Shown here piece by piece: positions 1 through 60,630 of a stretch of DNA of 64,000 nucleotides. The position numbers were made by a program, and so were the translations under genes. Positions within the stretch are counted from its first letter, which is position 1; the number at the start of each line of letters is the position of its first letter. Source of the stretch: an uncultured Akkermansia sp. (lineage in GTDB: Bacteria; Verrucomicrobiota; Verrucomicrobiia; Verrucomicrobiales; Akkermansiaceae); NCBI GenBank assembly GCA_947589295.1, contig CANQBZ010000002.1, positions 59,981 to 123,980 on the forward strand. The letters run 5' to 3'. The notes below the pieces were generated by a model. That model was not told the origin of the DNA, did not search any database, and saw only the letters and a program-made list of their open reading frames with translations.

Positions 1-3000
1 TTGCGAGCGCAGAGCATCCCGCTGGGCTGTGCCCAGAATGGGCGCAGCGCTGCCCGCAACCCCGGCGAGCGTCTGGGCCACCTTTTCCGGGTTGGATTGC
101 AGGTTGTTGGCGGCCCACACCATCATCTTGAGCATCTCCGTCTGAGAGGTCATGGGGGCAGTTTGTCTGGCGGCCCAGAGCATATCCGCCCCGGCCAGAG
201 AATTCTGCTTGTTCGCGGCGGCGCCGGAGAAGATGTTGTCGAAGTTGGCCTCCGCACTGAGCACAACCCCTCCCCGGTCTGACAGGTAGGTTGCTTTCAC
301 ATTCTTCCAGTAAATGAGGAAGGACCCTCCCAACTCCAATTCCAACTCCTGGCCGTCCTCTAAACCTTCAATGTCCCAACCTTCACCCCGATCTTTAATT
401 ATCACGCTGTCCAGGTTTTTCTGGTTACTCACTCCGTACGGATCAAACCCCATGGTTCCCACAAAAAGTTTGGCGCCCTCCCCCCATGCGAATTTGTCCG
501 TAACGATGGCGGGGCCTACATTCGTGAAATCACCACCCACTGCTGCCAAGTTGTAGAGCACCTCCAGGGTACCGCTTTTGCTCACGCTGACGCTGTCCGC
601 GTTCAACTGGGTGACAGTCGCATAATCCGCGCCGTAGCCGTTCGCCTGCACCGCCAATGTGCTGCCCTCTCTCACGGAGACCGTCCCGTACCGGGCCTCT
701 TGCACATGATCTGTCTTCTCGGCTCCTCTACCGGCAAGCGCGAGATAGCCTCCATTTTGCACAGTTAGACCGATTCCGTCACCCCCCTCACTGCGCAACA
801 TTTGGCAGGTGACGGAACCCGTCACGACGATACCGCCGCCAGCGCTGGTCTCATCAAACGTGCCGTAGAAATCCGCCATACGAACATTTGAACCAGTGCT
901 GTCGATTGTGAGGGTGGCTTTCAATTTCACCATGCCATCGTTCACCTCTCCTGACGCAAGAGTTTGATCCGCGCTGTAATCGCCGCTGAACAGCCCGCTG
1001 ATTTTATCGCTCTTGCCCAGGACAATTGTTCCGTAGCCCTCCTCATTTTTATCCAGCCACACGGCCACGCCATCCAGCCTGTTGTCATGCATCTCCAACT
1101 TGTTCTTCACAATCAAGATGCCGGAGCCGGATATGGTTCCGTTCCCTCCGGGGGTAGATGCATCCGTTATAGTTAGCGCCCCATTGATAACCAGTTCCGC
1201 CTCACTCTCCCCGTTGCCGAAATCACCGAGCTTGGCAATGGAACTTTCCCAGCCGTTCACGACGATCTTTCCCTCGGACACCTCGACTTCACCCACATCT
1301 TTTATGTTCCCCTGGATGTCCAGCTCGCCCGCAGTCACTGTCACCTCCTTCGCGTCTTTCAAATCTCCTCCGACGTACAGCTTGCCTTCAGCCACCTCCA
1401 CCTTACCCTTGCTTGTGAAGTCACCCCAGATGAGCAGGTCCTGATCCCCTTCCTTGATCACGGTGATGGTATCGTCCTCCACCGTCAGCCCCCTCAAGCC
1501 GGATGCAACGTTTCCTCTCTTTTCTTGGTCGATTCTCACAACGAGGTCGTAGGACAGAGGTTCTCCTTCTTCTGGCGCAGCCCGGTCATCCCTGATGGTG
1601 AGAACACCGCCTTCACCCGCTGCATCGATGCCCGCGCTCAGATCGACCAGTGTCACCTCTTTAACAGAATCAGGAGGTGATAACTGATCGTCGGTGAAGG
1701 ACAACGCCATATCCTTGTCCACAATCACCCGCGCCCATTTCTTCGCGCCAGTGTCGAGAGTCTCTTCCAACTGGTATCTCTTAATGTCCCCCAACGAGCT
1801 GGCCATCCAAATGCCGTCCGCACTGAGAACGAGTCGCAAAATACCACTATCACCGGAAAGGATGTCGTAAAAATCTTTTTGATTCTTTGTTCCCCCCATC
1901 TGGATGCCCTCCGAAAAAGAGAAATGACTCTCGAACCATTCTTGAAGTTCGAGGGCGCTCATTCCTTCCAAGTCCGAGAAGCTGCCGTTGCTGAACCAGA
2001 GATCGACATAGCTGCTGTCTCTTTTGTCTTGCAGTTGCTTGATGACATCATTCGTCAGGTAGAGTTCGACTTTAGCGCCCTCTTCAAAATCCAGCTTGCC
2101 ATCCGCACCATTAAACCGCAGCAAGTAGGCGCCACCGGAAGGGGCAGACCCCTGGCTGGCGGTCGTGATGTTCCCGGTCCCCACCACAAATTTGAAAGCA
2201 TTTGTGCCATCCTCCTGAGTTGTGAACTGAACTGTCGTCTCATTCGCAAGTCCGGTCACGCTGCGTGACACCCACGTCTCGTCCTTATTGTTAGGATTCT
2301 GCGGAGAGGGATCATATTTGCCCGCATATGTCATGTCCACCCCCCCGAGATAATCTCCCCTCAACCCACCTAGGTCGGAACTCCCCGATTTTCCGCTCAT
2401 GAACACCTGTACGGATGCCGTCAGCTCCCCGGCGTTGGCTAGATTACTGCCGTCGTACAAGAAGACTGTTCGTCCTTCTCCTCCTTCTTCTGAGGGCTCC
2501 TGGAGGTTCTTGCCGCCTAGGTCAAACGTGGTGCCGCCCGAGGAACTGGGGCCGGGTGAAAAGGGGTTGCTCCAATCCATCCCCGCATACACATAAATAT
2601 CCCCACTGGAGCCAAAGATGGTCTCGTCTGTAATCCGTACCGTACCGCCACCGGACAAGTCCGCTCCCGAAACATTCTCACCTTTACCCTTCAGCACAAG
2701 GGTCTTACCGGCGGCTACATAGAGTTTGACGGAATTGCCTTCCTTTCCCCAATCGATGACGCCGACGGGGTCATCGGCGCCATCGCCCTTAGCTTGCAGA
2801 GTAAAGGTGCTGGATCCGCCGCTATTCATGCGGATGGCATCATCGGCATCTTCCAAACCGCCAAAGAAAAAATTGGGGGCGATAAGCGTGTAGTTCCCCG
2901 TATTTTTGCTCACCACGATTCCGCCGAGGTACATGTTGAAATCGGCCGTCACGTCCCCGGCCTGGCCTACCGCGGCGTTTCCCACCCGAACCTCCTCAGG

Positions 3001-3999
3001 ATCCGGCTCCAGACCATCAGGATCGCCATCGGGCTTGAATTGATCCGGATTACCCAAGCTCTCCTGAAAGCGCCTCTGCGTGCCCTCAGCCATAAAACAC
3101 AGTTTATTCCAGTCCTCCCCATGCTGCTCTCCGTACAACTGTCCCACGGTGGCTCCGTAATCGTCCCCCACGCCGTACTGGTCGGCTACACATAACTCCG
3201 TCCCATCGTAGTCATCCGAATCGGACCTGTAAAGTTCATACAGTCCCGGTCCTCCCTCTTCCAAGCCATTTGTGTCTGCCAGCAGCTCCCCCTTGCCACC
3301 CACCACATACTCGTTTTCGTGGATGACCTCATAAGAGTATGACACCGTGACCTGCAGCCAACTTGTATCTTCCGTATCCTGTGTAGATGCGTAGAGGTCT
3401 GTCAGCCCCTGCCATGTCTCATCCGGGCCAAGGGAATCTGTGGCAGTACGATAGAACATTGTCCCAGAATCGCCCGAGGCATTCGCCGTGCCGCTCCAGA
3501 AAAAACCGACCTTATCACGAATGTCCCCGTACCTTTCGCTGTTGAGGTAACCATCGGGATTCCACACCAAATCATAACCCTTCGAGGGATACAGCGTATA
3601 GTTGAACCATTTCCAACCAGAACCTTCACCCCAACCGTAACCGTTCACATCGAGTCTTCTCCCCCCCGAGTCGCGCGGGTTGATGCGGACGGAGAAATTA
3701 GTCCGATCATCAACACCGGCCCAGTCGTCAGTCCGCTTGTCTGAGCCGAATCTAAGAGCATCTTCGTGATTCTTGATGACGAAATTAACAACCCACGTCA
3801 TTTCTGCCGACAACCCGTTAGGCAACCCCGGCAACTGCCTCAGGTCAAGGTGCAGCCAACCGTCATCAACTTCATCTTTTTCCCATAAACCCGTGATATT
3901 GACATTTTCTCTGGTGAACGTCTTAGTTTTCGCCCCTTGGGCAATCGGCATGGCAGCCATGAGAGCCATAAGAAGACCTAACGGAAGGTGTAGTTTCAT
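1..3999 (-). CDS. Autotransporter-like outer membrane protein, paralogue of 4483..9306; 3' end (barrel) lies beyond the window start
   Basis: Minus-strand ATG at 3999 gives MKLHLPLGLLMALMAAMPIAQGAKTKTFTRENVNITGLWEKDE...; frame reads through to ...GTAQRDALRSQ at base 1 (3999 nt = 1333 codons). Absent from the ORF track, presumably because no stop lies inside the window. Protein closely parallels the plus-strand neighbour. Confidence 0.85.
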   Translation of the reverse strand, partial: MKLHLPLGLLMALMAAMPIAQGAKTKTFTRENVNITGLWEKDEVDDGWLHLDLRQLPGLPNGLSAEMTWVVNFVIKNHEDALRFGSDKRTDDWAGVDDRTNFSVRINPRDSGGRRLDVNGYGWGEGSGWKWFNYTLYPSKGYDLVWNPDGYLNSERYGDIRDKVGFFWSGTANASGDSGTMFYRTATDSLGPDETWQGLTDLYASTQDTEDTSWLQVTVSYSYEVIHENEYVVGGKGELLADTNGLEEGGPGLYELYRSDSDDYDGTELCVADQYGVGDDYGATVGQLYGEQHGEDWNKLCFMAEGTQRRFQESLGNPDQFKPDGDPDGLEPDPEEVRVGNAAVGQAGDVTADFNMYLGGIVVSKNTGNYTLIAPNFFFGGLEDADDAIRMNSGGSSTFTLQAKGDGADDPVGVIDWGKEGNSVKLYVAAGKTLVLKGKGENVSGADLSGGGTVRITDETIFGSSGDIYVYAGMDWSNPFSPGPSSSGGTTFDLGGKNLQEPSEEGGEGRTVFLYDGSNLANAGELTASVQVFMSGKSGSSDLGGLRGDYLGGVDMTYAGKYDPSPQNPNNKDETWVSRSVTGLANETTVQFTTQEDGTNAFKFVVGTGNITTASQGSAPSGGAYLLRFNGADGKLDFEEGAKVELYLTNDVIKQLQDKRDSSYVDLWFSNGSFSDLEGMSALELQEWFESHFSFSEGIQMGGTKNQKDFYDILSGDSGILRLVLSADGIWMASSLGDIKRYQLEETLDTGAKKWARVIVDKDMALSFTDDQLSPPDSVKEVTLVDLSAGIDAAGEGGVLTIRDDRAAPEEGEPLSYDLVVRIDQEKRGNVASGLRGLTVEDDTITVIKEGDQDLLIWGDFTSKGKVEVAEGKLYVGGDLKDAKEVTVTAGELDIQGNIKDVGEVEVSEGKIVVNGWESSIAKLGDFGNGESEAELVINGALTITDASTPGGNGTISGSGILIVKNKLEMHDNRLDGVAVWLDKNEEGYGTIVLGKSDKISGLFSGDYSADQTLASGEVNDGMVKLKATLTIDSTGSNVRMADFYGTFDETSAGGGIVVTGSVTCQMLRSEGGDGIGLTVQNGGYLALAGRGAEKTDHVQEARYGTVSVREGSTLAVQANGYGADYATVTQLNADSVSVSKSGTLEVLYNLAAVGGDFTNVGPAIVTDKFAWGEGAKLFVGTMGFDPYGVSNQKNLDSVIIKDRGEGWDIEGLEDGQELELELGGSFLIYWKNVKATYLSDRGGVVLSAEANFDNIFSGAAANKQNSLAGADMLWAARQTAPMTSQTEMLKMMVWAANNLQSNPEKVAQTLAGVAGSAAPILGTAQRDALRSQ

Positions 4000-4080
4000 A
4001 ACAGAGAATGGGTCGGTGACAATGACAGCACAGCTCAGGCGGCGGCAACACGAGCAGTCGCGCCCTTGGAGACTTTCCGT

Positions 4081-4109
4081 AGTCTATCTCTTTTCAAAAG
4101 CGATATACC
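4081..4109 (-). promoter_or_regulatory. Sigma70-like promoter with palindromic spacer for autotransporter 1
   Basis: Minus strand GGTATA-[TCGCTTTTGAAAAGAGA, 17 nt]-TAGACT; spacer palindrome shared with two other autotransporter promoters. Confidence 0.6.
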
Positions 4110-4364
4110 CATGAATTCCATGTAAATGATTCATGATCAATTTTTCAATATTATTTCAAGTTAGAGAAAAATGAAATTTCGCCCTTGTTATCTGCTCTCA
4201 AGAGGTGCACGTTCGGGAGCGTTTCAATTCGTGTTCCTTCTCAGTCTTTTTCAAACGAGATGCGTGGAGTAGTTTTTTTGTATCAGTCTGTTGAGAGAAA
4301 TGAGGGGGAAGGAAGAGAGGGAGAATAAGTGCAAGATTTTTTTTGCAAAATGCGAAAAAAATAG

Positions 4365-4393
4365 TGGACATCTCTTTTGAAATGAGATAGACT
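4365..4393 (+). promoter_or_regulatory. Sigma70-like promoter with palindromic spacer for autotransporter 2
   Basis: TGGACA-[TCTCTTTTGAAATGAGA, 17 nt]-TAGACT, about 90 nt upstream of ATG 4483. Confidence 0.65.
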
Positions 4394-4482
4394 GCAAGAA
4401 GTCTGCGAAAAGACCGGTTTGCGTACGCGCATCCTGCAGTGTCTTGGGCTGTGCCACCATTACCCCTGAATCATTCTGCGTT

Positions 4483-7400
4483 ATGAAACTACACCTTCCG
4501 TTAGGGCTTCTTGCGGCTCTCATGGCTGCCATGCCGATTGCCCAAGGGGCGAAAACTAAGACGTTCCACAGAGAAAATGTCAATATCACGGGTTTATGGG
4601 AAAAAGATGAAACTCGGGACGGTTGGCTGCACCTTGACCTGACGCAGTTGCCGGGATTGCCCAACGGGTTGTCGAGAAATGTGGCGTGGGTTGTTAACTT
4701 TGTCATCAAGAATCACGGAGACAATTTTACATTCGGCTCAGTAAAGTCGCTTGTTTTTGACCAAACGACCCAGATCTATGATCGGGATAATTTCTCTGTC
4801 AGCGTCAATCCGAACGCCGTGTTGGGAGAACTCGAAGTGGGCGGTTACGGTTGGAGTAACGGTTCTAGTCACTCCTGGGACGGCTATACGCTGTATCCCT
4901 CGAAGGGCTATGATTTGGTGTGGAATCCCGATGGTACGCTCAACAGCAAAAGGTACGGGGACGTCCGTGACAAGGTCGGTTTTTTCTGGAGCGGCACCGC
5001 CAATGCCTCGGGCGATTCTGGGTCAATGTTCTATCAGACTGCCACACGTTCCCTTGGCCCGAGTGATTCATGGCAGGGGCTGACGGACCTCTACGCATCT
5101 ACACAGGATACGGAAGATACAAGTTGGCTGCAGGTCACGGTGTCGTACGCCTACGTGGTCACCCAGGTCAACGAGTATGTAGTGGGCGGCGCAGGCAAGT
5201 TGAAGAGCGGGAACAACGGGGGGCAGAAAGCCGGCGGACCGGGACTGTACGAGGTTTTCAGCTCGGATAAAGACGATCCGGATAATGGGGAACTTGTCGT
5301 GGCCGACCAATACGGCGTTGTTGGGGATGAGAAGAACAAGACGGTGGGGGATTTGTACGGATCGGAGCATGGGACCACATGGAACAAGCTGCGCTTCATG
5401 GCCGCCGGTACACAGCGCCGCTTTGACGGTCCTGATCTTCCGGAACCTCCCCCGGCTGATGCCAGCAACAAAAAGTGGGAGCAGTACCGGGAAGATCGCG
5501 AAAAAGCTATAGCGGATTACAATGCCACCATGGAAGGCAGTTCGACCGTGGGAGCCGCCGGAGTTGTGGAGGCGGATTTCGCCATGTACCTCGGCGGAAT
5601 CGTGGTGGGCAAAAATACGGGGAATTACACCCTTGTCGCCCCCAGTTTCACCTTTGGCGACCTGGAAGAAGAGGACGACTATGCCATCCGCGTGGACGGA
5701 GGCACGCGCAGCTTTACCCTGCGGGCCGGGGACAACGGCGACGGTGTCATCGATTGGGGAGAAGAAACATCCCACCTCAACCTCAGCGTGGCTGCCGGCG
5801 GAACCCTCCTGCTGGAGGGTGCGGGGGGAGAAGGGAGAGAGTTGGAGGAGGTGCGCCTGCACGGCGGCGGCACGGTAAAGATTACAGATAAGACCATCTT
5901 TGGCTCCAGTGGGGACATTTATGTGGAGAGGGAATGGAATGTCTTGCCCCCCGACCCCGATACCCCGAACAACATCTCGGGTGGCAGCACGTTGGATCTG
6001 AACCACAATAACCTTTCGGGCGCCGCAGATCGAACGATATACCTGAAAGACAGCGCTTGCTTGGCCAACGCCGAGGAGTTGACGGCCAGTGTGGAAGTGA
6101 GCGCGGGACGTTCTCACCTGGGCGGGTTGGATGGGCAGCGTCTCAAGAAAGTCGTGTTGACACAGACGCTCCACGAAGACGATGAGGATGGCTATCAATC
6201 GGGCTGGGTGCATGGGATCGGGGAGGGGAGTACCGTCACGTTCACTGGCTCGGGGGATCAATTTGCTTTTGTGGTGGGGACTGAGAACATCACGTCCGCC
6301 AGCCAGGGGGCTGCCCCATCGCCGGGCGGCACCTACCTGCTGCAATTTAACGGTTCGGGGGGAAGCTTGTCTTTTGGTTCGGAAGACGCCAATGCCCAAG
6401 TGAAGTTCTACTTGACAAATGACCTGATTGCGACGCTGAAGGATGAGGATTACGTGGGAGGCTACGTTGACCTCTGGTTCAGCAACGGAAGTTTCTCGGA
6501 CTTGGACGAAGCCACACTCGGCGACGCAGCCAAACTGCAAGCCTGGTTCGAGAGCCACTTCAAGTTTGGTGACGGCGTCCTGGCCGAGATTGATCGCGAG
6601 GGGCTTCTTTGCGACATCGTCTCCGGCAATATGAGCGAGAAGAACGGCGGTATACTGCGTTTACTCATCAACACAGATGGCATTTGGCTGGGCAGCTTGT
6701 ACGGCGATGTGCGGGCGGATCAGCTGGAAGAGACACTCGATTCTGGCGAGAAGAAATGGAAGCGGGTGATTGTGGACAAGAATATGACGCTCTCCTTCAC
6801 TGATGATGGCAAGACCGCAGAGGGTGAGACGACTACCGGTGTGACGCTGACCAATCTGAGCTCCGGTATCGGTACCGTGGACGGCGGGGTGCTCACCATC
6901 GACGACCGGCGCGCCGATCCGGGGGAGCAGGACCTCACCGTAACGCTCCAACAAGAGGAAGACGAAGAGGACCCGGACATGGTGTACAATTTGGGTGGGT
7001 TGGATGTGAAAAACAACACTATTACCGTGGTCAAGGACAGAGCTGCGGATTTGCGCATCTTGGGGAACTTAACAAGCGCAGGTGAAGTCAAGGTGTCCGA
7101 GGGAAAGCTTGTCGTGAACGGCTGGGAAAGCTCCATTGCCAAGCTCGGTGATTTCGGCGACAAGGAGAGTGAGGCGGAACTGGTTATCAACGGGGCGTTG
7201 GCCGTAACAAGCGCATCTGACCCCAGAGGGAACGGAACCATATCCGGCTCCGGCATCCTGATTGTGAAGGACAGTTTGGACGTGAGGGAGAACAAGCTGA
7301 ATGGCGTGGCCGTGTGGTTGGATAAGAAGAGTGAGTCAAGTGAGGACTACGGCAGCATTACTTTGGGTAGCAACTTTAAGGGCGATAGCGACCTAATCAG

Positions 7401-9306
7401 CGGACTGTTCAGCGGCGATTACAGTGCGGACCAGGCTCTTGCGTCGGGAGAGACGGGAGGCCACGTGAAGTTGGATGGAAACCTCACGATCGACAGCACA
7501 GATTCAAATGTCCGCATGGCGAACTTCTACGGCACGTTTGATGAGAGCAGCAAAGGCGTCATAGCCGTGACGGGTCCTGCGACCCGCCAGGTGTTGCGTA
7601 GTACGGGGGATGATGGGGTCGATCTGGCCGTAGAGGGCGGCGCCTGTCTCGCGCTCACTGGCCTTGGTGACTCTCTGGAGAAATATGTGCAAAAAGTCAA
7701 CTACGGCATGGTCTCCGTGAGCGAGGGCAGCACATTGGCGGTGCAGGCGAGCGACTACGGCGCGGATTGTGCGGCTGTCACCCAGTTGAACGCGGACAGA
7801 GTCAGAGTGAGCGAAAGCGGTACCCTGGAGGTGCTCTACAACTTGGCGGCAGTCAACGATGATTTAGCGAAAGCGGGCGCCGCCGTTGCCACAGAAAACT
7901 TCGCATGGGAAGAGGGCGCTAAACTCTTTGTGGGAACCGTGGGGAGCAATCCCTACGCGGTGAATAACCCCCAGGACGTGAAGGACTACGTGATCATTGA
8001 AGATCAGTACATTGAAGGTTTAGAGCTCAACCAGGAGCTGGAATTGGAGCTGGGAGGGTCCTTCCTCATTTACTGGAAGAACGTGGAAGCAACCTACCGG
8101 CCGGGCACGGGGATTGTTCTCAATGCGGAGGCCAACTTCGACAACATCTTCTCCGGCGCCGCCGCGAACAAGCAGAATTCTCTGGCCGGGGCGGATATGC
8201 TCTGGGCCGCCAGACAAACTGCCCCCATGACCTCTCAGACGGAGATGCTCAAGATGATGGTGTGGGCCGCCAACAACCTGCAATCCAACCCGGAAAAGGT
8301 GGCCCAGACGCTCGCCGGGGTTGCGGGCAGCGCTGCGCCCATTCTGGGCACAGCCCAGCGGGATGCTCTGCGCTCGCAAATGCTGCGCATGCGCGACCGG
8401 GCCGGCATGATGGGGCTGGATGAGAGCTACGCCTACGAATCCCTGCCTTACACGCATTTCTGGGTGGAGGCCACGGGGGACTTCATCAATGTGCAAGATG
8501 GGGATGATTACGAGCCCGGCTACACGTACAACGCCTGGGGAGGAACCCTTGGGCTGGAGATGGATGTGACCGAGAATGCGAGTGTGGCCGCCGGCATCAC
8601 CGCCCTGTACGGCAATTTGGATGGAGGCTGCGCCGACACGGCCGACGGCAACCTAGACAGCTATTACTTGAGCCTCATGGGCCGATTCACCCGGCGGCGC
8701 TGGGGCCACACCCTGGTGGGCGTGCTCGGGCTCAACCAGGCCAAACTCACCCGCACGGTGAACTACGGAGACGGTTTCTACCGGGCTCATGGGAGCACGA
8801 GCGGCTGGGTGGCCGGTTTGCTCTACGAGGCGACCTATGACATTCCCTTGGACATGGAGCAGACCAGGATTGTGCAGCCGCTGTTTGCAGCGTCCGTCAT
8901 GAAGACGAACATGAGAGGCTACGAGGAGAGCGGGCTGGAGGGCCAGGGGGTGGGCCTGAATGTCGGCGAGCAAGATTGGACGACGACCACCTTGGCCATA
9001 GGCGCGAGGTATATCACCAGCGTGGGCGAGGAGGCGTTCAACCGGACGGCGCAACTGGAGCTGCGTGCGAATATCGCGCAGGACTTCGGGGATTCGCAGG
9101 GAGAGGTGAGCACGTCGCTGCAAGCGCTTCCATCGCTGACGCGCTCGGTGAAGGGGGCTGAGGTGGGCAAGACTGCGCTCCAGCTAGGGGCGTCGCTGCG
9201 CGTTCCCATCTCGGATCAGACGCTCATCTACTTCAATGCGGGCGCAGATATCCGCGATGCGATGACGGCGTGGAACCTCGGCGTGGGCGCTCGATACGAC
9301 TTCTAG
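4483..9306 (+). CDS. Autotransporter outer membrane beta-barrel protein
   Basis: Long ORF (track start 4444; the ATG at 4483 gives a signal peptide MKLHLPLGLLAALMAAMPIAQGA); repetitive beta-helix-like passenger; C-terminal barrel ending ...LGVGARYDF with terminal Phe. Confidence 0.9.
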   Translation: MKLHLPLGLLAALMAAMPIAQGAKTKTFHRENVNITGLWEKDETRDGWLHLDLTQLPGLPNGLSRNVAWVVNFVIKNHGDNFTFGSVKSLVFDQTTQIYDRDNFSVSVNPNAVLGELEVGGYGWSNGSSHSWDGYTLYPSKGYDLVWNPDGTLNSKRYGDVRDKVGFFWSGTANASGDSGSMFYQTATRSLGPSDSWQGLTDLYASTQDTEDTSWLQVTVSYAYVVTQVNEYVVGGAGKLKSGNNGGQKAGGPGLYEVFSSDKDDPDNGELVVADQYGVVGDEKNKTVGDLYGSEHGTTWNKLRFMAAGTQRRFDGPDLPEPPPADASNKKWEQYREDREKAIADYNATMEGSSTVGAAGVVEADFAMYLGGIVVGKNTGNYTLVAPSFTFGDLEEEDDYAIRVDGGTRSFTLRAGDNGDGVIDWGEETSHLNLSVAAGGTLLLEGAGGEGRELEEVRLHGGGTVKITDKTIFGSSGDIYVEREWNVLPPDPDTPNNISGGSTLDLNHNNLSGAADRTIYLKDSACLANAEELTASVEVSAGRSHLGGLDGQRLKKVVLTQTLHEDDEDGYQSGWVHGIGEGSTVTFTGSGDQFAFVVGTENITSASQGAAPSPGGTYLLQFNGSGGSLSFGSEDANAQVKFYLTNDLIATLKDEDYVGGYVDLWFSNGSFSDLDEATLGDAAKLQAWFESHFKFGDGVLAEIDREGLLCDIVSGNMSEKNGGILRLLINTDGIWLGSLYGDVRADQLEETLDSGEKKWKRVIVDKNMTLSFTDDGKTAEGETTTGVTLTNLSSGIGTVDGGVLTIDDRRADPGEQDLTVTLQQEEDEEDPDMVYNLGGLDVKNNTITVVKDRAADLRILGNLTSAGEVKVSEGKLVVNGWESSIAKLGDFGDKESEAELVINGALAVTSASDPRGNGTISGSGILIVKDSLDVRENKLNGVAVWLDKKSESSEDYGSITLGSNFKGDSDLISGLFSGDYSADQALASGETGGHVKLDGNLTIDSTDSNVRMANFYGTFDESSKGVIAVTGPATRQVLRSTGDDGVDLAVEGGACLALTGLGDSLEKYVQKVNYGMVSVSEGSTLAVQASDYGADCAAVTQLNADRVRVSESGTLEVLYNLAAVNDDLAKAGAAVATENFAWEEGAKLFVGTVGSNPYAVNNPQDVKDYVIIEDQYIEGLELNQELELELGGSFLIYWKNVEATYRPGTGIVLNAEANFDNIFSGAAANKQNSLAGADMLWAARQTAPMTSQTEMLKMMVWAANNLQSNPEKVAQTLAGVAGSAAPILGTAQRDALRSQMLRMRDRAGMMGLDESYAYESLPYTHFWVEATGDFINVQDGDDYEPGYTYNAWGGTLGLEMDVTENASVAAGITALYGNLDGGCADTADGNLDSYYLSLMGRFTRRRWGHTLVGVLGLNQAKLTRTVNYGDGFYRAHGSTSGWVAGLLYEATYDIPLDMEQTRIVQPLFAASVMKTNMRGYEESGLEGQGVGLNVGEQDWTTTTLAIGARYITSVGEEAFNRTAQLELRANIAQDFGDSQGEVSTSLQALPSLTRSVKGAEVGKTALQLGASLRVPISDQTLIYFNAGADIRDAMTAWNLGVGARYDF

Positions 9307-9400
9307 GAGAAACGGGAGGGAGCGAGAGACAAGCCCCCGCGAGGTGAGCCTCCCGCGCAGATGTGCCTCAGCCTCCGCAATCGCGCGGCGCCTCTCAACA

Positions 9401-11089
9401 TCAACCCGGCAAGGGGAAGTTGCGATTAAATTGGCTCACCTCATCGCGCAGAGCATCGTAAGCGCCGGGAGTGGGCTGTTTTTTCTGCTCAATGAGGAGG
9501 GCGAGGCAACGGTCGATGAAGGAAGCGACCTGGCAGACATCCTGCTCTTTCATGCCACGGGTGGTGACGGCAGGAGTGCCGATGCGAATGCCGGAGGGGG
9601 TTGAAGTGCTGCCTTTATCGAAAGGAATCGCGTTTTTGTTGACGGTGATGCCGACTTGATCGAGAGCGACCTGAGCCTCGGCGCCATTGAGGCCTTTCAC
9701 ACTGAGGTCAACGAGGAAGCAATGATTATCTGTGCCGCCGGCAACGATACGGTAACCGAGCTCGGCGAGCCGGTCGGCCATAGCCTTCGCATTTTTCACA
9801 ATCTGGGCGGCATAGGTGCGGAATTCAGGTCTGAGCGCCTCGCCCAAGCAAGCGGCTTTGGCAGCGATGACGTGCATGAGAGGCCCGCCCTGCAAGCCGG
9901 GGAAAGTGGCGCTGTTGAGTTTTTTAGCCCATTTTTCCTTGCACATGACCAGCCCGCCGCGCGGCCCGCGCAAGCTCTTGTGTGTGGTGGTGGACACAAA
10001 GTCGGCGTACGGCACGGGGGAGGGATGCACGCCCGCGGCCACAAGACCGGCAATGTGCGCCATGTCCACAAACATGATGGCGCCCACCTCGTCGCAAATT
10101 TGGCGGATGCGGGCAAAGTCGATAGTGCGCGAGTAAGCGGAGGCTCCGGCGAGGATGAGCGCGGGCTTCACCTCGCGCGCTTTGGCGGCCAGAGCATCGT
10201 AGTCGATGCACTCGGTATCAGGATTGACGCCGTAGTGTTCCACTTTGTAAAGTTTGCCGGAGAAGTTGGCAAAGAAGCCGTGGGAGAGGTGTCCGCCGTG
10301 GGCCAAGTCCATGCTCAGGATGGTGTCGCCGGGCTGCAAGCAAGCCAGGTACACGCTCATGTTGGCCTGAGAGCCGGAGTGCGCCTGCACATTCACATGC
10401 TCACAGCCAAAGAGAGCTTTCGCGCGGTCAATGGCAAGCTGCTCCACTTTGTCCACCACCTCGCAGCCGCCGTACCAGCGTTTGCCGGGGTAGCCCTCGG
10501 CGTACTTGTTGGTGAGCACGGAACCCTGCGCCTCCATGACGGAGGGGGAAGCAAAGTTTTCGGAAGCAATCAGCTCAATGTTGTTGTTTTGTCGGCGGCG
10601 TTCCTCCTCGATGTAGCCGGCGAGCTCCGGGTCAGTCACGGCCAAGGGAGAACCACTTGCTTTCAGCAACCGTTGGACATGTCGGCCCCCCTCAAACTCG
10701 GCAATGAGCCATGCGTGCAGGATGTCATCCAAATCATCCGGCGTGATGAAAGCCGAGGCCAGGCACATGACATTGGCGTCGTTGTGCTGACGGGAGAGCG
10801 CGGCAATCTGCGGCGTGCGTACGAGAGTGGCCCGCACACCGCGCCAGCGGTTGGCCGCAATGCTCATTCCCAATCCGGAAAAGCAGATAAGGATGCCGCG
10901 ATCCGCCCGACCATCCACCACGCGCCGACACACCTCATTCGCATAGTCGGAGTAGTCGCAAGATTCCTTGCTCATCGTCCCCACATCCTCGACCGTATAC
11001 CCCCACTCTCTGAGCATTTCGACCGCTGCTTGCTTCAAATCCACCCCTTTGTGATCCGCCCCAATGGCTATGCTCTGTTTGGTATCCAT
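9401..11089 (-). CDS. Fusion protein: ribose-5-phosphate isomerase B (N-term) - serine hydroxymethyltransferase (C-term)
   Basis: N-term [13 protein letters not shown]...[11 protein letters not shown]...[17 protein letters not shown]...[14 protein letters not shown] (RpiB); C-term [49 protein letters not shown]...[13 protein letters not shown] (GlyA); one continuous frame. Confidence 0.93.
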
Positions 11090-11098
11090 ACGCCCAAC

Positions 11099-11126
11099 AT
11101 TATAGGGAGCAGGCGGAAAATGTCAA
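11099..11126 (-). promoter_or_regulatory. Promoter of rpiB-glyA, predicted leaderless
   Basis: Minus strand TTGACA-16-TATAAT, only 9 nt before ATG at 11089. Confidence 0.7.
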
Positions 11127-11145
11127 CAAAAGACATCGGGGAATC

Positions 11146-11175
11146 AGGGCAAACGCACGAGAAAATGCGTTTGCC
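11146..11175. repeat. Inverted repeat GGCAAACGCA-cgagaaaa-TGCGTTTGCC
   Basis: 10-bp arms, short loop; same arms flank the ISAs1-like element near 44.75/46.05 kb and a related copy lies at 11810-11839. Confidence 0.75.
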
Positions 11176-11208
11176 ATTTACGATCCGGGGAGTCTGCAGC
11201 CGGGAATC

Positions 11209-11556
11209 GTGCTTATCGATGAGGTGGAGACGCATCTGCACCTCGAATTGCAGCGGCTTGTGATGCCCATTCTCACCTCTCTTTTCCCGAAAATACAGTT
11301 TATTGTCACCACGCATTCTCCTTTCGTTCTTTCGTCGATTGGCAATGCTGTGGCATTTGATTTGGAGAAGCACGAAGCGCTGATCGAGGGATATTTTGGA
11401 GTTCAGGACACACCGGCCGCCATCACGGGTAGACTCCGCCGTGTCCGTGAACTTATCCGGACGGGAAACAACCTCGCCGCCAAGCTTAGCTTGCTTCGTG
11501 ACTGTCCCGCCCTCCTGGAGGATTTTCGGCAGGAGACAATTTGGAATCGCTCCTAG
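11209..11556 (+). pseudogene. C-terminal fragment of an AAA/ABC-type ATPase (Walker B and H-loop region only)
   Basis: [42 protein letters not shown] is typical of AAA_15/AAA_21/OLD-like ATPases; the open frame extends upstream to about 11165 ([14 protein letters not shown]) but no P-loop half is present. Confidence 0.7.
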
Positions 11557-11858
11557 GTGGCCGGGATTGCAGCGCCAAGCAGACGGAGTCTGCCTATTGA
11601 CGATTTGCGACACGCCTGACAGACCTATGAGGAGAGCTCGCGTCAGCGCGGTTAGTAACAGCGTACGGGTAGCGCAAAGGCTCTGCCTCGGAAGAGTTTG
11701 ACCTGATCGGGGAATGACGAACTGGAATGATGCGGGCTTGAGCGTGAGCTCGCGCAGCAAACGAGGGAGCGGAGCCGTCCTCCAGGCCTTGCCGACGAGC
11801 ATTCGCAGTGGCAGACGCATTTTCTCATGCACTTGTCCCGTGGAGATAGGCGAAAACA

Positions 11859-11887
11859 TTGACAAAATCGGGAGGTACGGTTATGCT
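11859..11887 (+). promoter_or_regulatory. Promoter of znuA-like gene, predicted leaderless
   Basis: TTGACA-17-TATGCT, 6 nt before ATG 11894. Confidence 0.65.
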
Positions 11888-11893
11888 CAGGCC

Positions 11894-12760
11894 ATGCGTT
11901 TTATCATGCTCATAGCGCTGTTTGCCGCCCAGATTGCGTGGGGGGGAGCTGTGCGCGTGGCAAGCCTGCACCCGCTGCTCAGTGAAATGGCCCGGCGCGT
12001 GGGCGGAGAGGATGTGGAGGTTGTGGACTTGTTCCCACCGCATGGTGAACTGCACCGTTTTGAACCCGGCGCGCAGGAGCTGGCGGCGGCGGTGCGGAGT
12101 CGGCTGATCCTGGCCTGCGGCAAGGGAGTGGAGCCGTACTTGGGAGCGCTGCGCGAGGTTTTTTCCGCGGCCAACCCGCCGGTGCGCGTGCTGGAGCTGG
12201 GAGACGCGGCGCCGGAGGTGATGACCCCTGAGGGCAGCCTTGATCCGCACTGGTGGAATGCACCGGAGAACATGAAACGGGCCGCTTTTGGGCTGGCCCT
12301 GGCCCTGTCGGAAGAATTGCCGGAGCAACAAGAAGCGATCCGCGCACGACTGACAGCCTATGCGCAGGCTATGGACGAACTTACTCGCGAGGCACGACTG
12401 GCGCTGGCTCATGTGCCGGAGGAGCGCCGCACGCTTGTGACCGAGCATGCCGCCATGTGCCATTTTTGTGCGGCGTTTCGTTTGCATCCCATCGCGGTGC
12501 AAGGAGCGGCAGCAGAGGGCGAAGGGGATATGGCGAGCGTAGCGCAGTTGACCCGCGAGCTGAGGCGGCGGGGGGTGCGGCGAGTGTACGCCGAGCTGCG
12601 CGAGGCTCCGCGTTTTTTGCAGAATATAGCGGCGGCTGCCGGCGCCGAAGTGGGGGAACTCTCCATGGATGGAGTAGCGCCCGGCCAGCCGACGTACGAA
12701 ACCCTGTTTCGCAACAACCTGCGCGCCGTGTGCGAAGGATTTTTGTGTGAAAAGAAATGA
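11894..12760 (+). CDS. znuA: Metal (Zn/Mn) ABC transporter substrate-binding protein
   Basis: Signal peptide MRFIMLIALFAAQIAWG; RVASLHPLLSEMARRVGGEDVEVVDLFPPHGELHRFEPGAQE; followed by ATPase and permease. Confidence 0.8.
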   Translation: MRFIMLIALFAAQIAWGGAVRVASLHPLLSEMARRVGGEDVEVVDLFPPHGELHRFEPGAQELAAAVRSRLILACGKGVEPYLGALREVFSAANPPVRVLELGDAAPEVMTPEGSLDPHWWNAPENMKRAAFGLALALSEELPEQQEAIRARLTAYAQAMDELTREARLALAHVPEERRTLVTEHAAMCHFCAAFRLHPIAVQGAAAEGEGDMASVAQLTRELRRRGVRRVYAELREAPRFLQNIAAAAGAEVGELSMDGVAPGQPTYETLFRNNLRAVCEGFLCEKK

Positions 12761-13206
12761 CGATGAACCACCCCATTGCTGTGATAGGCTACACCCTGCT
12801 GGGAGTGATGGCGGCGGGGGCGCCGCTGATCTACTTCGCAAAGGGGCCAACGCCCGAAGCGGAACAAAAGCCGACAGACGTTCCGAGGGAAATCACTGCG
12901 CCCACCCCCGTGCTGGTGCGTTACGCGGACCAACCCGTGGAAATCTGCATACGCCGCACGGGCAAAGAGCTGCTGCGGCTCAAACCTGATCGCAGTGGGA
13001 CGTGGTACGGCACGCTTTCGTTGCCCGTGATCTCGCCGGGGAGAACGCTGGAGCTCGAGGTGCAGACACGGTGGCCCGGCGCGCCCACCACCAACCAGGC
13101 CGTTACCCTGGAAATCATGCCCGCAGGACTGCGCACAAGCGCCGACACGCAGTGGAGCCACAGCGGCGAGAGCGAGTTGCACACCACTTTCATCTTCCGA
13201 TGGTAA
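12757..13206 (+). CDS. Hypothetical membrane-anchored protein within the metal-transport operon
   Basis: N-terminal hydrophobic segment; overlaps the stop of the upstream gene and the start of the downstream gene. Confidence 0.7.
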   Translation: MTMNHPIAVIGYTLLGVMAAGAPLIYFAKGPTPEAEQKPTDVPREITAPTPVLVRYADQPVEICIRRTGKELLRLKPDRSGTWYGTLSLPVISPGRTLELEVQTRWPGAPTTNQAVTLEIMPAGLRTSADTQWSHSGESELHTTFIFRW

Positions 13207-13964
13207 GCCCAGAAGACCACATTTGCTGGGGAGCGGCCAACCCCAACCACCACCCGCACGAGCTGCAGGTGCGCGAGCTGAGCGCCGCCTACCCCCGGGC
13301 CGCCCAACCGACGCTCGACAGACTGCACTTCAGCATCCACTGCGGGCACACGCTGGCAGTGATGGGGCCCAACGGAGCGGGCAAATCCACGCTGCTCAAT
13401 GTGCTGGCGGGATTGATGGGCACGATGAACGGCGAAGTGCTTTGGGATGGCAGAGCGCTGCACCACACGCGGCGCGAGGTGGCCTGGCTCCCGCAGCGCA
13501 GCCAGGTGGACCTTTCCTTCCCCATCACCGTGCGCGAGCTGGTGGAGATGGGTCGCTACCCCGCGCTCGGTCCCTGGCGGGCAGCGGGTGAGCACGATGC
13601 GCTCATGGTCGATAAGGCCATGCACACGCTGCACATCGCCGATTTGCAGCGCCGACAGATACGCGAACTTTCCGGCGGGCAGCTGCAACGCGTTTTCCTG
13701 GCGCGAGCGCTGGCGCAAGAGGCGCATATCCTGCTGCTGGACGAGCCCTTCACCGGGCTGGATGCTCCGGGCGCGGGCGCACTGGGCGAGCTGCTGGGCG
13801 AGCTTGCACACGAAGGGCGATTGGTCATCGCGAGTTACCACGATGTGGACCATGCCGCGAGCTACTTCGACTACGCACTTCTGCTACGCAAGGGGAAGCA
13901 GATGGGCTTCGGCCCCTGCGCGCAGACGCTCACTCGGGAAAATCTTCAGTGCACGTACTCATGA
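13200..13964 (+). CDS. znuC: Metal ABC transporter ATP-binding protein
   Basis: Walker A GPNGAGKST, signature LSGGQLQRV, Walker B ILLLDEPF. Confidence 0.88.
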   Translation: MVSPEDHICWGAANPNHHPHELQVRELSAAYPRAAQPTLDRLHFSIHCGHTLAVMGPNGAGKSTLLNVLAGLMGTMNGEVLWDGRALHHTRREVAWLPQRSQVDLSFPITVRELVEMGRYPALGPWRAAGEHDALMVDKAMHTLHIADLQRRQIRELSGGQLQRVFLARALAQEAHILLLDEPFTGLDAPGAGALGELLGELAHEGRLVIASYHDVDHAASYFDYALLLRKGKQMGFGPCAQTLTRENLQCTYS

Positions 13965-14779
13965 AGGACTTTCTCCAGTATCTGGCCGAACCCATTGCGC
14001 TGCGCACGCTATGGGCCTGTGCCGTGATCGGCTTTGTGGATGGTTATGTGAGCGCGCTGGTGGTGCTGAGGCGCTCGTCCCTGCAAATTGGTGCGGTGAG
14101 CTGCGCGCTGCTGCCCGGCATAGCCGTGGGCATCCTGCTTTTCGGGCTGGGACAATGGAGCGCCCTGGCAGGAGCAGTGGTGGCGGGACTGCTGGTGGGA
14201 CTCAGCTCACTTTTTGTGGCGCGCAGCACAGTGCTGCACCACGATGCCGCGCTCTCGATCATTCACTCCGCCGCCTTTGCGCTCGGTTACGTTATTCTCG
14301 TACGCCTCGGTCTGCAACAGAGGGTGGATGACTGGCTCTTCGGCAACATCATGAGCATGAGCTTTGCCGATCTCTGCATAGCCTACGGCATTGGCGCCAC
14401 GGCCCTGCTTGGACTCACCCTCTTCCAACGACCGCTACTGCTCTGGCTCTTTGACGCGCGCACTGCGACCAGTCTTGGACTGCCGACCCGCGGCATCAGC
14501 TACGCTGTGTACGCTCTCATTGTGATGGCGCTTGTTTCCTCCCTCCAGGCAGTTGGGGCGTTGCTCACGCTGGGACTACTGGTGGCGCCCGGTGGAATTA
14601 TGCGCCTGCTCAGCAACCGAGCTTCCACGATGTTTTGGGGCGGTGGTTGCATAGGAGCCGGGTGCTCCGTGCTGGCCTTCTTCATCTCTTACCCGCTGAA
14701 TCTGCACTTGGGCGCCACTATCATCTTGCTGCTTGGCGTCGTGTTCTGTGTGGCTTGGTTTTTCGGGAAGAGGAAGTAA
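13961..14779 (+). CDS. znuB: Metal ABC transporter permease
   Basis: Multi-TM ABC-3 family protein (GFVDGYVSALVVLRRSSLQIGAVSCALLPGIAVG...). Confidence 0.83.
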   Translation: MKDFLQYLAEPIALRTLWACAVIGFVDGYVSALVVLRRSSLQIGAVSCALLPGIAVGILLFGLGQWSALAGAVVAGLLVGLSSLFVARSTVLHHDAALSIIHSAAFALGYVILVRLGLQQRVDDWLFGNIMSMSFADLCIAYGIGATALLGLTLFQRPLLLWLFDARTATSLGLPTRGISYAVYALIVMALVSSLQAVGALLTLGLLVAPGGIMRLLSNRASTMFWGGGCIGAGCSVLAFFISYPLNLHLGATIILLLGVVFCVAWFFGKRK

Positions 14780-15325
14780 TCAGAGCGGACAGTAGCAAAT
14801 GCGCAAAGGGATGGAGAGAATTCCCGCCGCATGCAAGTCGGCCATCGTGGAGCAAAAGGTGCGCCAAGCGGCTGCATCCGGGGTGGAAATGCAGCCTTCC
14901 GACCCATAACGCTCCGCAAAATGAAGCATCAGAAATGTGCGACCGGCGCCGGGCGGATCCGGCACGCGAAAACCGCGAAGATTGCCGGTTCGTTCGGTGC
15001 CCAGCCTGGTGCTGCCGATATCCGGGAAGCAGGTATCGGGGAAATCGGCAGGATTGTAGGCGCCCCAAGCTGCGTTCGCCGGGAAGAGCCCCGCCCGGGC
15101 AAAGGGACTGTTCGCGCTCATCCAACCGCCCGTTTGCACAGACATTTCGAGCAGCAAACGGTGCAACAAAGCGGAGCGCAAACGCAGCACGCCGAGCCGC
15201 ACGCAACCGGAGGCGCACAGGGAGTTGCGCTGTTCCTCGCGCCGTACGGGGGCAGCTCCCACGGCGTAGAAAACAACCTCTGCATGAGGAGAAGCGTTGT
15301 GGAGCGCGGCAGCCGACATGGGCAT
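14780..15325 (-). CDS. Hypothetical protein with L,D-transpeptidase-like H...GSxGCI motif
   Basis: C-term LMLHFAERYGSEGCISTPDA resembles the YkuD-type signature; downstream of the dynamin-like gene. Confidence 0.5.
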   Translation of the reverse strand: MPMSAAALHNASPHAEVVFYAVGAAPVRREEQRNSLCASGCVRLGVLRLRSALLHRLLLEMSVQTGGWMSANSPFARAGLFPANAAWGAYNPADFPDTCFPDIGSTRLGTERTGNLRGFRVPDPPGAGRTFLMLHFAERYGSEGCISTPDAAAWRTFCSTMADLHAAGILSIPLRICYCPL

Positions 15326-15338
15326 GAGGGATGCGGAT

Positions 15339-17237
15339 TTATTGCAGGGCCTTGAGACGGCGCGCGGTGAGCAGCGTGGGCGCCAGGCTTTTGCGCAGCG
15401 TATTCACCATCTCGATATCCGCCTGAGCGGTGGCAATGCTGCGCCCAATTTGCTCGGATTGCTCAAAACCCTCCAGCTCCGCAAGCAGGCATGTCTCCAG
15501 CGCGGCAATGCGGCTCGATACAAAGCGATCCAGAGCCTCGCCAACCTTCTTTTTCCACGCCTCCAGACGAGCGGCTATGTTTTCGCGACCGACACGACGC
15601 CACTCCGGGACCGTTTTGTTGTAGCTGCAGGAGCGGTTGATCATACCCAGGAACGTGGTTTCTCGCAGCGCTCCCAGAGGGATGGGGCTGCAATCCAGCG
15701 GCACGTGCTCCCATGCGTTGAGCACGGCCTTCACATAATCTTTCTCAATTTCTGCGGCCGAGCGGCGTTTGAGGATATCTGCACATTGAGCAATTTTCTC
15801 CTTTTCCAACTCGGTGAGCTCGCAGATTTTAGCGGGGGAGAGCACATGCGTTTCCTGCTCGGCAGCCAAGTCTCCCAAGTCGTTTTCGGCCTTGGCACGG
15901 ATACGGTTGAGCGGCTGAGCGAGCATATCATGCGTCATCCAATCCGGGGGGAAATAGCCATCCACCGCTAAGTCGAGAATGGCATCCAGGCGAGTGTTGA
16001 GGGTCTGCCGCGCCTGGTCCGCCAAATAACCACAGCGCAGGCGACCTTCGTGCAGATTGCTGCTTTCAATGGATTCGCGCAGGCGAGCAGCGTCCATAAG
16101 GCGATGCACCGATGCTTGGATTTCGTGCACATGAGAGATGTGGGAGCGGCTTTGCGCAGAGAAGTTTTTAAGACGCAGGTCAAGTCCCTCCAGAGTTTTG
16201 AGCAAGTAATCCGCCGAGTTGCGCCGCAGCGTGATCTCCGGGTGACTCAAGTCGGCAAGCACCTCCTCTTCTAACGTATCAAGATTGGAATCGCGGCGCG
16301 AGGGGGTATCGGCCGAATCGGGGGGAAGGCCCTTCTCCTGGCAACGCAAATCAAGCTGCCACCAGGCCAGGCCGGCGTTGACCCACGAGCCCGGAATGAC
16401 TTTGCGAATAAAGTCGCCGAGCTGTTTTTGAGTGGTGACTTGCTGAACTTGCTGCTGTTGCTCCTGATCGGCCGGCGAGAGCCAGAATTGGGCCTCGATG
16501 CGATTCTGCACCACACGAATGGGGCGCTGCGAGCGCTCCATGGCAGCGCGGAGGTAGTCGCGCGTGTCCGGTGTGAGCGCGGCGAACGAACTCTGCACCA
16601 GCAAGAAATAGTCTGCGTTTTCATTCATCCACTCGTGCAGCTCCTCATCGTGCCAGTTGGAGGTGAGGCCATCCATGCCGGGCATGTCGATGATGCCGAT
16701 ACCTGCTTGAAGGAGGCGGGCAGAGGGTTCTACCAGGAAAATGGCAGCGCAGCCGGCGCTGGTGTGACCCTGGGCCCAAGCATCCAAATTTGCCTGGGTG
16801 ATGTTACGGCGATCCACGGAGATTTTTTCATGGAACTCGGGAGGGGCAATATGGCGCAGGTAGTCAATCACCAGCTCAAAGAGGTCCTGCTCGCTCAGAG
16901 AATCCGCCGCCAGCGGGGAAAAGAGTTCCATGCGCTCAGTGCCGTCATCGCTCGCCAGGATAATCATGGGAAGGCGCGTGGTTTCCACCCCCAATTTGGT
17001 AGCGCAGAGATTGCGACGAGTCAGGCAGTTGGTGAGTGTGGATTTGCCGCTCTTCACCGAGCCGATCGTAGCCATGAGCAGCAACTTGGATTCAAAACGC
17101 GCCAGACTGCGCCTCACCTCCTTGCTCCCGCGCGTCAGCACCGCACGCAGCTCGGGACTCGCTTCGCGCACGCCCTCTATCTTGTCGGCATACCCTCGCG
17201 CTTCCTCGCACAGGGCATTGAGTTGCTCATCCATCAT
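15339..17237 (-). CDS. Dynamin-like GTPase family protein
   Basis: P-loop GSVKSGKSTLTN, ETTRLPMI, IIDMPGMDG; 632 aa. Confidence 0.82.
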   Translation of the reverse strand: MMDEQLNALCEEARGYADKIEGVREASPELRAVLTRGSKEVRRSLARFESKLLLMATIGSVKSGKSTLTNCLTRRNLCATKLGVETTRLPMIILASDDGTERMELFSPLAADSLSEQDLFELVIDYLRHIAPPEFHEKISVDRRNITQANLDAWAQGHTSAGCAAIFLVEPSARLLQAGIGIIDMPGMDGLTSNWHDEELHEWMNENADYFLLVQSSFAALTPDTRDYLRAAMERSQRPIRVVQNRIEAQFWLSPADQEQQQQVQQVTTQKQLGDFIRKVIPGSWVNAGLAWWQLDLRCQEKGLPPDSADTPSRRDSNLDTLEEEVLADLSHPEITLRRNSADYLLKTLEGLDLRLKNFSAQSRSHISHVHEIQASVHRLMDAARLRESIESSNLHEGRLRCGYLADQARQTLNTRLDAILDLAVDGYFPPDWMTHDMLAQPLNRIRAKAENDLGDLAAEQETHVLSPAKICELTELEKEKIAQCADILKRRSAAEIEKDYVKAVLNAWEHVPLDCSPIPLGALRETTFLGMINRSCSYNKTVPEWRRVGRENIAARLEAWKKKVGEALDRFVSSRIAALETCLLAELEGFEQSEQIGRSIATAQADIEMVNTLRKSLAPTLLTARRLKALQ

Positions 17238-17244
17238 GCCTGCA

Positions 17245-17273
17245 AGGATAGAGCATCAGCACCGGTATGTCAA
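17245..17273 (-). promoter_or_regulatory. Promoter of dynamin-like gene, predicted leaderless
   Basis: Minus strand TTGACA-17-TATCCT, 7 nt before ATG 17237. Confidence 0.65.
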
Positions 17274-17387
17274 GAGAATGTGCGAGATAGAGGAGTGCGA
17301 TGGAGCGAAGTTGGAAATGCGACTCGCACCCGGGCGCGCCAAGGCGTCAGCCGGACGGGGCGGCCATTGCCCACGACAAACGTCTGT

Positions 17388-18446
17388 TCACGGAGCATCG
17401 AGTTCTCGCCTGTGGGGAGGGAGAATGCCCAGTTGCAAGGCATTGGTGACATAAGCACACGAACGGGCATAAGCGGGCTCTGCGAATGCGTACGAACCGC
17501 CTGCGCCGGCATGACCAAACCCACCCCTACCGAATAAAACAACAGGTTCGCACATGGCGCCGCAGCTGAAGGCTGTGTGGCAGAGAAGTGTGAGGTCCTG
17601 CCCGGAAATCACCGGGTGAGACATCCACCCGAGCACCTGAGGGGAGAAGGGCGAGTCGGGAAGCTGCCCGAGCAATGCCTGGTAAAACAGCGCCAGCCCG
17701 CGCGCCGAAGCGATGCCGCCGCGCGCAGGGCAGGCGCAGGAGAGGCCGAAAGGGGTGTTCATGTGACGCGGGGAGGGCAGACCGGTCACGCAGTTGAAAG
17801 CACGATAAACCGACGAGGAAGGATCGAAGTATGCGCGGTAAAAGGGGGTATCCGGCAGGCGTCCATGGACACGCGGGGGCTGTAGAACGGCCACGCGTTC
17901 GGCGAGATGCAGAGGGAGGCCGATGTAGAAGTCAAGCCCGAGCGGGCGACGCACGCGCTTTTCCCAAAAGTCGGCGATGCGCATGCCGGTGAGGGCACGC
18001 ATGAAGATATCGAGCATGGGGCCGAGGGTGTGCGGATGGTAGCCATGCTGCGGCGGCGCCCACAGCGGCAAGCTGCGCTCCACTACCGCGCGGCAGGCTT
18101 CTAAATCATCAATAGGGGCAGATTCGCCCCAGGCAGCGAGACCGACTTGATGCGAAAGCAGGTGCTCGACAGTGCAATGCGGCGCGGGGAAATGCGGCCA
18201 AAGTTCGCCGAGCTGGAGAGCCGGGCTGCTCCCCTGCTCTTCCAGCGCTTGTAAGAAGCACGCAGCAGCTGCCGCTTTGGTGGCAGAGAAGACAGGTACG
18301 AGAGTCGAATCAGTCCACGGCACGCCGGGGGCCTGCTCCCCGCGCACGCTGGAGCGTACTATTTGCCCGGCGCAACAGATGCACACTGCCTCGCCCGCAC
18401 CGCGGCGCGGCGCACCGGGAGACGAAGGCTGGACAGGCGCATTCAT
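17388..18446 (-). CDS. Serine hydrolase, beta-lactamase family (class C/esterase-like)
   Basis: SATK (SxxK) motif, LLSHQVGLAAWG context. Confidence 0.75.
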   Translation of the reverse strand: MNAPVQPSSPGAPRRGAGEAVCICCAGQIVRSSVRGEQAPGVPWTDSTLVPVFSATKAAAAACFLQALEEQGSSPALQLGELWPHFPAPHCTVEHLLSHQVGLAAWGESAPIDDLEACRAVVERSLPLWAPPQHGYHPHTLGPMLDIFMRALTGMRIADFWEKRVRRPLGLDFYIGLPLHLAERVAVLQPPRVHGRLPDTPFYRAYFDPSSSVYRAFNCVTGLPSPRHMNTPFGLSCACPARGGIASARGLALFYQALLGQLPDSPFSPQVLGWMSHPVISGQDLTLLCHTAFSCGAMCEPVVLFGRGGFGHAGAGGSYAFAEPAYARSCAYVTNALQLGILPPHRRELDAP

Positions 18447-60437: not shown

Positions 60438-60464
60438 GTACCTCTTTTTGAAAGAGATGTACAG
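60438..60464 (-). promoter_or_regulatory. Second, reverse-oriented copy of the autotransporter promoter palindrome
   Basis: Minus strand CTGTACATCTCTTTCAAAAAGAGGTAC matches 60601-60625 CTGTACATCTCTTTCAAAAGGAGAT; no good -10 follows. Confidence 0.6.
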
Positions 60465-60601
60465 CCTAAAATGCGTTAAAATTTTCTTTGTGAAGATTTT
60501 TCGTTTTTCCGTGGGCATAATAACATGCAAAAGGAGTTGAAGTTTTAATAACATTATTTTTTGTAGAAGATTTAATAATAATTTATTACAACTATACGTG
60601 C

Positions 60602-60630
60602 TGTACATCTCTTTCAAAAGGAGATATACT
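60602..60630 (+). promoter_or_regulatory. Sigma70-like promoter with palindromic spacer for autotransporter 3
   Basis: TGTACA-[TCTCTTTCAAAAGGAGA, 17 nt]-TATACT, about 40 nt before ATG 60670. Confidence 0.7.

Follow-up and report, generated by a model that had tools for sequence, protein, structure and literature searches.

Homogenised barrels and a putative two-way promoter inverton in a head-to-head autotransporter pair of Akkermansia

Akkermansia is a major commensal of the mucus layer, and autotransporters are abundant among its outer-membrane proteins. Invertons with CGGATT..AATCCG arms are described for Akkermansia muciniphila (Jiang et al. 2019, cited by PMC13343947; inverton group 138 in PMC11892184), one of them located near two autotransporter genes. 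The autotransporter UpaE of uropathogenic E. coli is regulated by an invertible promoter under a tyrosine recombinase (PMC6083910). In Helicobacter pylori, the 3' segments of babA/babB and homA/homB are in concerted evolution by gene conversion (Pride and Blaser 2002, cited in PMC3960876). The head-to-head autotransporter pair described here probably owes its organization to two processes: its barrels would be kept alike by gene conversion, and a 265-bp promoter segment between the genes would be inverted by a recombinase, choosing either B or A.

The stretch of DNA analysed (the window, 64,000 nucleotides, G000:C2:59981-123980) is the right part of the 124-kb contig C2 of the Akkermansia draft genome under study, G000. 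Genes A and B, separated by an intergenic gap of 483 bp (Table 1), are predicted to be paralogous type Va autotransporters arranged head to head. Each protein contains a C-terminal PF03797 beta-domain in the Pfam search (residues 1360-1620 in A, E 3.4e-33, and residues 1326-1586 in B, with the same score of 115.9 bits) and ends in RYDF, with an aromatic last residue. No passenger domain was detected by Pfam in either protein, and an Rfam scan of the locus gave no matches. The window holds the first 1,333 codons of A, the end of which is located to its left, at C2:59054. The leaders, in which MKLHLPLGLL is conserved, are nearly identical, as the initial annotation had noted (93% at the nucleotide level over the first 60 codons), and the middles of the passengers have diverged as it described, nucleotide identity falling to 50–75%. 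Upstream of the 3' tract considered below, the two genes are still homologous, with a patchy nucleotide identity of 50–93%. Their passengers are 62% identical, and each is the closest relative of the other. The pair is absent from every other genome searched among 76 of the genus, none of which contains it in the opposite arrangement, and the upstream region of B matches that of a single-copy gene adjoining glyA in G063, G067 and G077. At 9401-11089, on the minus strand, there is a single ORF that appears to encode an RpiB-like sugar-phosphate isomerase fused to serine hydroxymethyltransferase (GlyA), with 88–95% identity in related species. Comparison of window 1-18500 with L069, L064, L121 and L043 reveals a gene neighbourhood rearranged between species; in G000, the autotransporter-glyA-znu-dynamin block has the opposite orientation with respect to the lpxD side, the breakpoint coinciding with the 3' end of gene A.

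Table 1. Coordinates of the features at the A/B locus (window positions unless preceded by C2).
Feature	Position	Strand	Details
Autotransporter gene A	1..3999	(-)	1,641 aa; ORF; start codon 3999
Autotransporter gene B	4483..9306	(+)	1,607 aa; ORF; head-to-head with A
A-side tract copy, window part	1..256	(-)	full copy C2:58960-60236
B-side tract copy, inverted relative to A	8124..9400	(+)	exact 8124-9359; 2 mismatches up to 9400
Left putative inverton arm	4085..4104	(+)	core TATCTCTTTTCAAAAGCGAT; extended arm 4070-4104
Right putative inverton arm	4370..4389	(-)	core TATCTCATTTCAAAAGAGAT on minus strand; extended arm 4370-4404
Putative invertible segment, 265 bp, single -35 box	4105..4369	.	between arms
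Predicted promoter TGGACA-17-TAGACT	4365..4393	(+)	-35 4365-4370, -10 4388-4393; toward B as assembled
Predicted dormant -10 box TAGACT, A side	4081..4086	(-)	paired with -35 only once segment inverted

The 3' ends of A and B share an identical inverted tract. The initial annotation had reported an exact inverted match between window positions 1-255 and 8125-8379; the match in fact comprises 1-256 and 8124-8379, and once the sequence to the left of base 1 is included the exact tract grows to 1,236 nt (C2:59001-60236 against window 8124-9359), or 1,277 nt with 2 mismatches. The two copies, 7.9 kb apart, begin 1,183 nt before each gene end and finish 93–94 nt past each stop, so that the tract contains the end of the passenger linker, the barrel, the stop codon and ~93 bp of 3' flank. 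The last 393 codons are identical between A and B, with 0 synonymous differences. As a yardstick, the barrel of the most similar related species pair, G063/G067, differs at 63 of 334 codons that specify the same amino acid; set against this figure and the divergence of the passengers, the identity of the A and B barrels is far beyond chance or shared ancestry.

Such an identity could be artificial if a short-read assembler had merged the two barrels or duplicated one of them. No 16S gene could be located in the G000 assembly, which is therefore probably a short-read MAG; it consists of 92 contigs, and an exact 1.2-kb repeat is normally not resolved by short-read assembly and should break a contig. 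The two contigs of another species that display the same pattern (G008:C25 and C64) are likewise drafts. The copies of the 3' flank, however, are told apart by 2 mismatches, beyond which each continues into unique sequence of its own, and the single-contig genomes G074 and G004 have the same kind of exact barrel tracts at distant loci. The presence of the pattern in closed genomes argues that the tract is real, and an assembly artefact is considered unlikely.

The closed genomes also indicate how the identity is maintained. In G074 (a 2.65-Mb single contig), three genes share exact barrel tracts of 934–989 nt at loci 0.3–0.8 Mb apart; in G004, an exact tract of up to 1,089 nt connects distant loci, and further exact barrel tracts between loci are found in G015. 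In G008, two head-to-head pairs carry exact inverted barrel tracts, of 1,270 and 1,024 nt. Among G074, G004 and G016, the passengers pair as orthologues, with 67–92% identity and conserved upstream and downstream neighbours, whereas in the tree of barrels the sequences of one genome fall together. The exception is a diverged barrel subtype, c5, which follows the locus and serves as an internal control. Paralogues within a genome thus resemble each other more than orthologues between genomes do, in the converted part only. Gene conversion, put forward by the initial annotation as an alternative to inversion, is therefore well supported on these comparisons as the process keeping the 3' tract identical between barrel-encoding ends across the genus. 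Homogenisation is, in the genomes compared, confined to the barrel and a short 3' flank, and it would proceed mostly by conversion without crossover, since passengers keep their 5' and 3' flanking genes while the barrels homogenise. No chimeric passengers were seen. The head-to-head arrangement alone does not force identity, as the barrels of a syntenic head-to-head pair in G069 have diverged. One consequence is that barrel sequences are unfit for tracing the orthology of Akkermansia autotransporters. A literature search on gene conversion in Akkermansia retrieved nothing relevant. In the closed genome G015, several autotransporters (L098-L110) have barrel-end tracts that are exact over 1.8–3 kb, much longer than elsewhere, in open frames of up to ~4,100 codons.

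The same pattern might be expected from a recent inverted duplication followed by fast diversifying selection on the passenger, with no gene conversion, and the fact that the A and B passengers are mutually closest fits this explanation. It is nevertheless very unlikely. Synonymous changes reach 17 of 34 in parts of the passenger against 0 of 393 codons in the barrel, a contrast implying that passenger and barrel are of different ages, and the same barrel identity occurs between old, non-tandem paralogues in the closed genomes. The species pair G063-G067 shows ~0.68 substitutions per site in the passengers and ~0.17 in the barrels, compared with ~0.63 and 0 for A and B.

The initial annotation had suggested that recombination across the inverted tract would give each passenger the barrel of its partner. 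Recombination does take place between long inverted repeats, and this one is both long and exact. A RecA-mediated inversion swapping the C-terminal modules of A and B is, however, extremely improbable, because the tract takes in the C-terminal domain as a whole and runs past the stop codon through 93 bp of 3' flank; as it spans all the rest of both genes, the recombinant proteins would equal the originals and the repeat cannot act as a coding switch. A crossover within the tract would invert ~8 kb and return the same two reading frames, leaving the encoded products unaltered; the only change would be that argD and the rpiB-glyA fusion, which flank the pair on either side, trade places relative to A and B. 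In addition, passenger and downstream flank remain linked in the closed genomes. A rare, neutral 8-kb inversion across the tract may occur. If there is an inversion switch at this locus, as is likely, it would be situated not at the barrel repeat but at the promoter segment between the genes (4085-4389).

This segment is bounded by short inverted arms, which align over 35 nt at 83% identity around a core of 24 nt with 2 mismatches, a poorer mutual match than that of many other elements of the same family; arms and segment lie within the size ranges of promoter invertons, 10–40 nt and ~100–400 bp, respectively. The predicted promoter has its -35 box inside the segment and its -10 box outside, the spacer being the arm itself, and TAGACT is present in both flanks. 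When the segment is flipped in silico, TGGACA-17-TAGACT appears on the minus strand from 4109, directed toward A, and is gone from B, so that, going by sequence consensus, the direction of the predicted promoter would depend on how the segment is oriented. A scan for the promoter consensus found 1 match against 0.9 expected in shuffles, which alone is not significant; support for the predicted A/B promoter lies instead in a geometry that is repeated throughout the family. The known CGGATT..AATCCG inverton motif has 0 matches as a unit within the window, where single CGGATT hexamers occur at chance level.

In the mechanism we propose, a tyrosine recombinase would invert the 265-bp segment bounded by the 20-nt inverted arms. 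The -35 box would move with the segment and each flank would supply a -10 box, so that B would be transcribed in the assembled state and A in the flipped state. With a single movable -35 box and one -10 box per flank, B or A would be transcribed, but never both. Flipping of the A/B copy itself, promoter activity, the restriction of expression to one gene at a time and the identity of the acting recombinase are inferred from the sequence.

The arms belong to a large family. The core TATCTCWTTTCRAAAGMGAT, with at most 1 mismatch, is found at 31 sites per strand in G000, 62 in total, against 0 for a reversed-pattern control; as the near-palindromic core causes part of the sites to be counted twice, once per strand, these correspond to ~20–30 elements. 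The motif is common in one Akkermansia clade (4–70 sites per genome), and no site was found in the closed A. muciniphila-like genomes G074, G004 and G016. Short inverted-repeat pairs are present in 21 of the 43 autotransporter upstream regions on hand, against 0.4 in shuffles. Both G008 head-to-head pairs have arms closely similar to those of A/B, and the arms between the genes of the G069 pair, TACGGATTCTAAATTCGT, resemble the known CGGATT type. The geometry was surveyed in 20 inverton pairs from G000 and in 60 pairs over five genomes. Frequently, a TGGACA or TGTACA -35 box abuts one arm on the inside, the arm forms a 17-nt spacer, and a TAnnnT -10 box is built from the outer arm end plus the flank. 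A -35 box matching at 5 or more of 6 positions is located at exactly one inner edge in 35 of the 60 invertons and at both edges in none (0/60).

Inverted pairs of this kind could also be regulator-binding palindromes or fixed promoter elements instead of recombination sites; the core itself is palindromic, and the arm makes up the -35/-10 spacer. Such a reading is unlikely, since the sites occur in inverted pairs at fixed spacings and the inner segments are found in opposite orientations when near-identical paralogues, or different species, are compared, while the flanks stay in register. Three autotransporter-like paralogues of G069 bear the element (L203, L209 and L213): the inner segment of L213 is 99% identical to those of L209 and L203 only when reversed, while the gene flank is 91% identical in register; in L203 and L209, the unflipped control, the inner segments match at 100% without reversal. 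Reversed inner segments are also found between L232 and L235 of G077 (89%) and between L162 of G000 and L211 of G069 (88%). The promoter segment of a CGGATT-type element upstream of the c2 autotransporter orthologues has one orientation in G074 and G016 and the opposite one in G004, again with the flanks in register. Both orientations are thus seen for other family members and for one CGGATT-type element, in comparisons between paralogues or species and not within a population, and by these comparisons other members of the TATCTCWTTTCRAAAGMGAT family are inverted. The ON/OFF difference between L161-type and L165-type elements in G000 was considered as flips of one segment and rejected, the inner segments being two different families.

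Several additional elements were observed. A second inverton of the family at window 60439-60626 fronts a MKLHLP-leader gene truncated by the end of the contig; TGTACA is present at both of its inner edges, so its state is unreadable. At L167 (G000:C53, 3745-4062), two MKLHLP-leader genes arranged head to head have one family inverton in common, with its -35 box toward the left gene, and this is likely a second two-way selector in G000. Family invertons at L170, L171, L174 and L177 of G000 are near nucleotidyltransferase-, acyltransferase- and glycosyltransferase-like genes, named by eye from their N-terminal sequence; surface sugars may be switched too by these elements. Several motif sites are also located within ~200 nt of contig ends (G069:C34:26419, C19:34260, C56:5 and C28:2; G000:C16:46763 and C6:63194), a placement to be expected where short-read assembly graphs are broken by mixed orientations or by near-identical elements.

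Regarding the enzyme, G000 contains 13 PF00589 genes, and three copies of a 333-aa tyrosine recombinase, one of them encoded at C9:57512-58510, provide a concrete candidate. This recombinase is found, at 83% identity or more, in 11 of the 76 genomes of the genus, and the motif is present in 11 of these 11; among the other 65, 10 or more motif sites occur only in G014 and G076. The co-occurrence is suggestive of the 333-aa protein being the recombinase of the inverton family and is confounded by phylogeny, the genomes belonging to one clade. No TATCTCWTTTCRAAAGMGAT site was found beside the recombinase genes. Identical genes for a 338-aa tyrosine recombinase are situated on different contigs of G000 (L246, G000:C6:2569; L247, G000:C41:16812).

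If the proposed mechanism holds, selection of one of two surface proteins would result in antigenically mixed clonal populations, and the arm motif makes any Akkermansia long-read data set a test of the selector. Promoter invertons in Akkermansia, one of them near two autotransporters, and the concerted evolution of 3' ends in H. pylori are already known (PMC11892184, PMC13343947, PMC3960876). The literature searched yielded no report of the TATCTCWTTTCRAAAGMGAT site motif, of the split -35/-10 layout or of the abundance of the motif in the clade, nor of a two-way selector between head-to-head autotransporters or of barrel homogenisation in Akkermansia. We lean toward the view that an Akkermansia clade has ~20–30 promoter invertons distributed genome-wide, with their own motif, a multi-copy 333-aa recombinase, an arm that doubles as spacer and a -35 box as the only movable element, and that in head-to-head autotransporter pairs, whose barrels are kept interchangeable by conversion, they act as two-way selectors.

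The proposed element resembles the CGGATT invertons of A. muciniphila in its short inverted arms, in a promoter segment of 130–280 bp upstream of surface genes, in an orientation that would be reversible and in belonging to the same genus. It differs in its arm motif, with the 62 TATCTCWTTTCRAAAGMGAT sites of G000, and in the placement of the -35 box inside and the -10 box outside one segment that would serve two divergent genes. As in UpaE, a tyrosine recombinase would control an invertible promoter element with an autotransporter as its target; unlike that system, which is described as regulating one autotransporter, in an unrelated host, the element here lies between two head-to-head autotransporters. 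The barrels parallel H. pylori babA/babB, also paralogous outer-membrane proteins whose genes are homogenised at the 3' end and divergent elsewhere, with a similarity within a genome that exceeds that between strains or species. Here, in contrast, the proteins are type Va autotransporters of Verrucomicrobiota, the shared sequence is an inverted repeat, and conversion covers the barrel together with its 3' flank.
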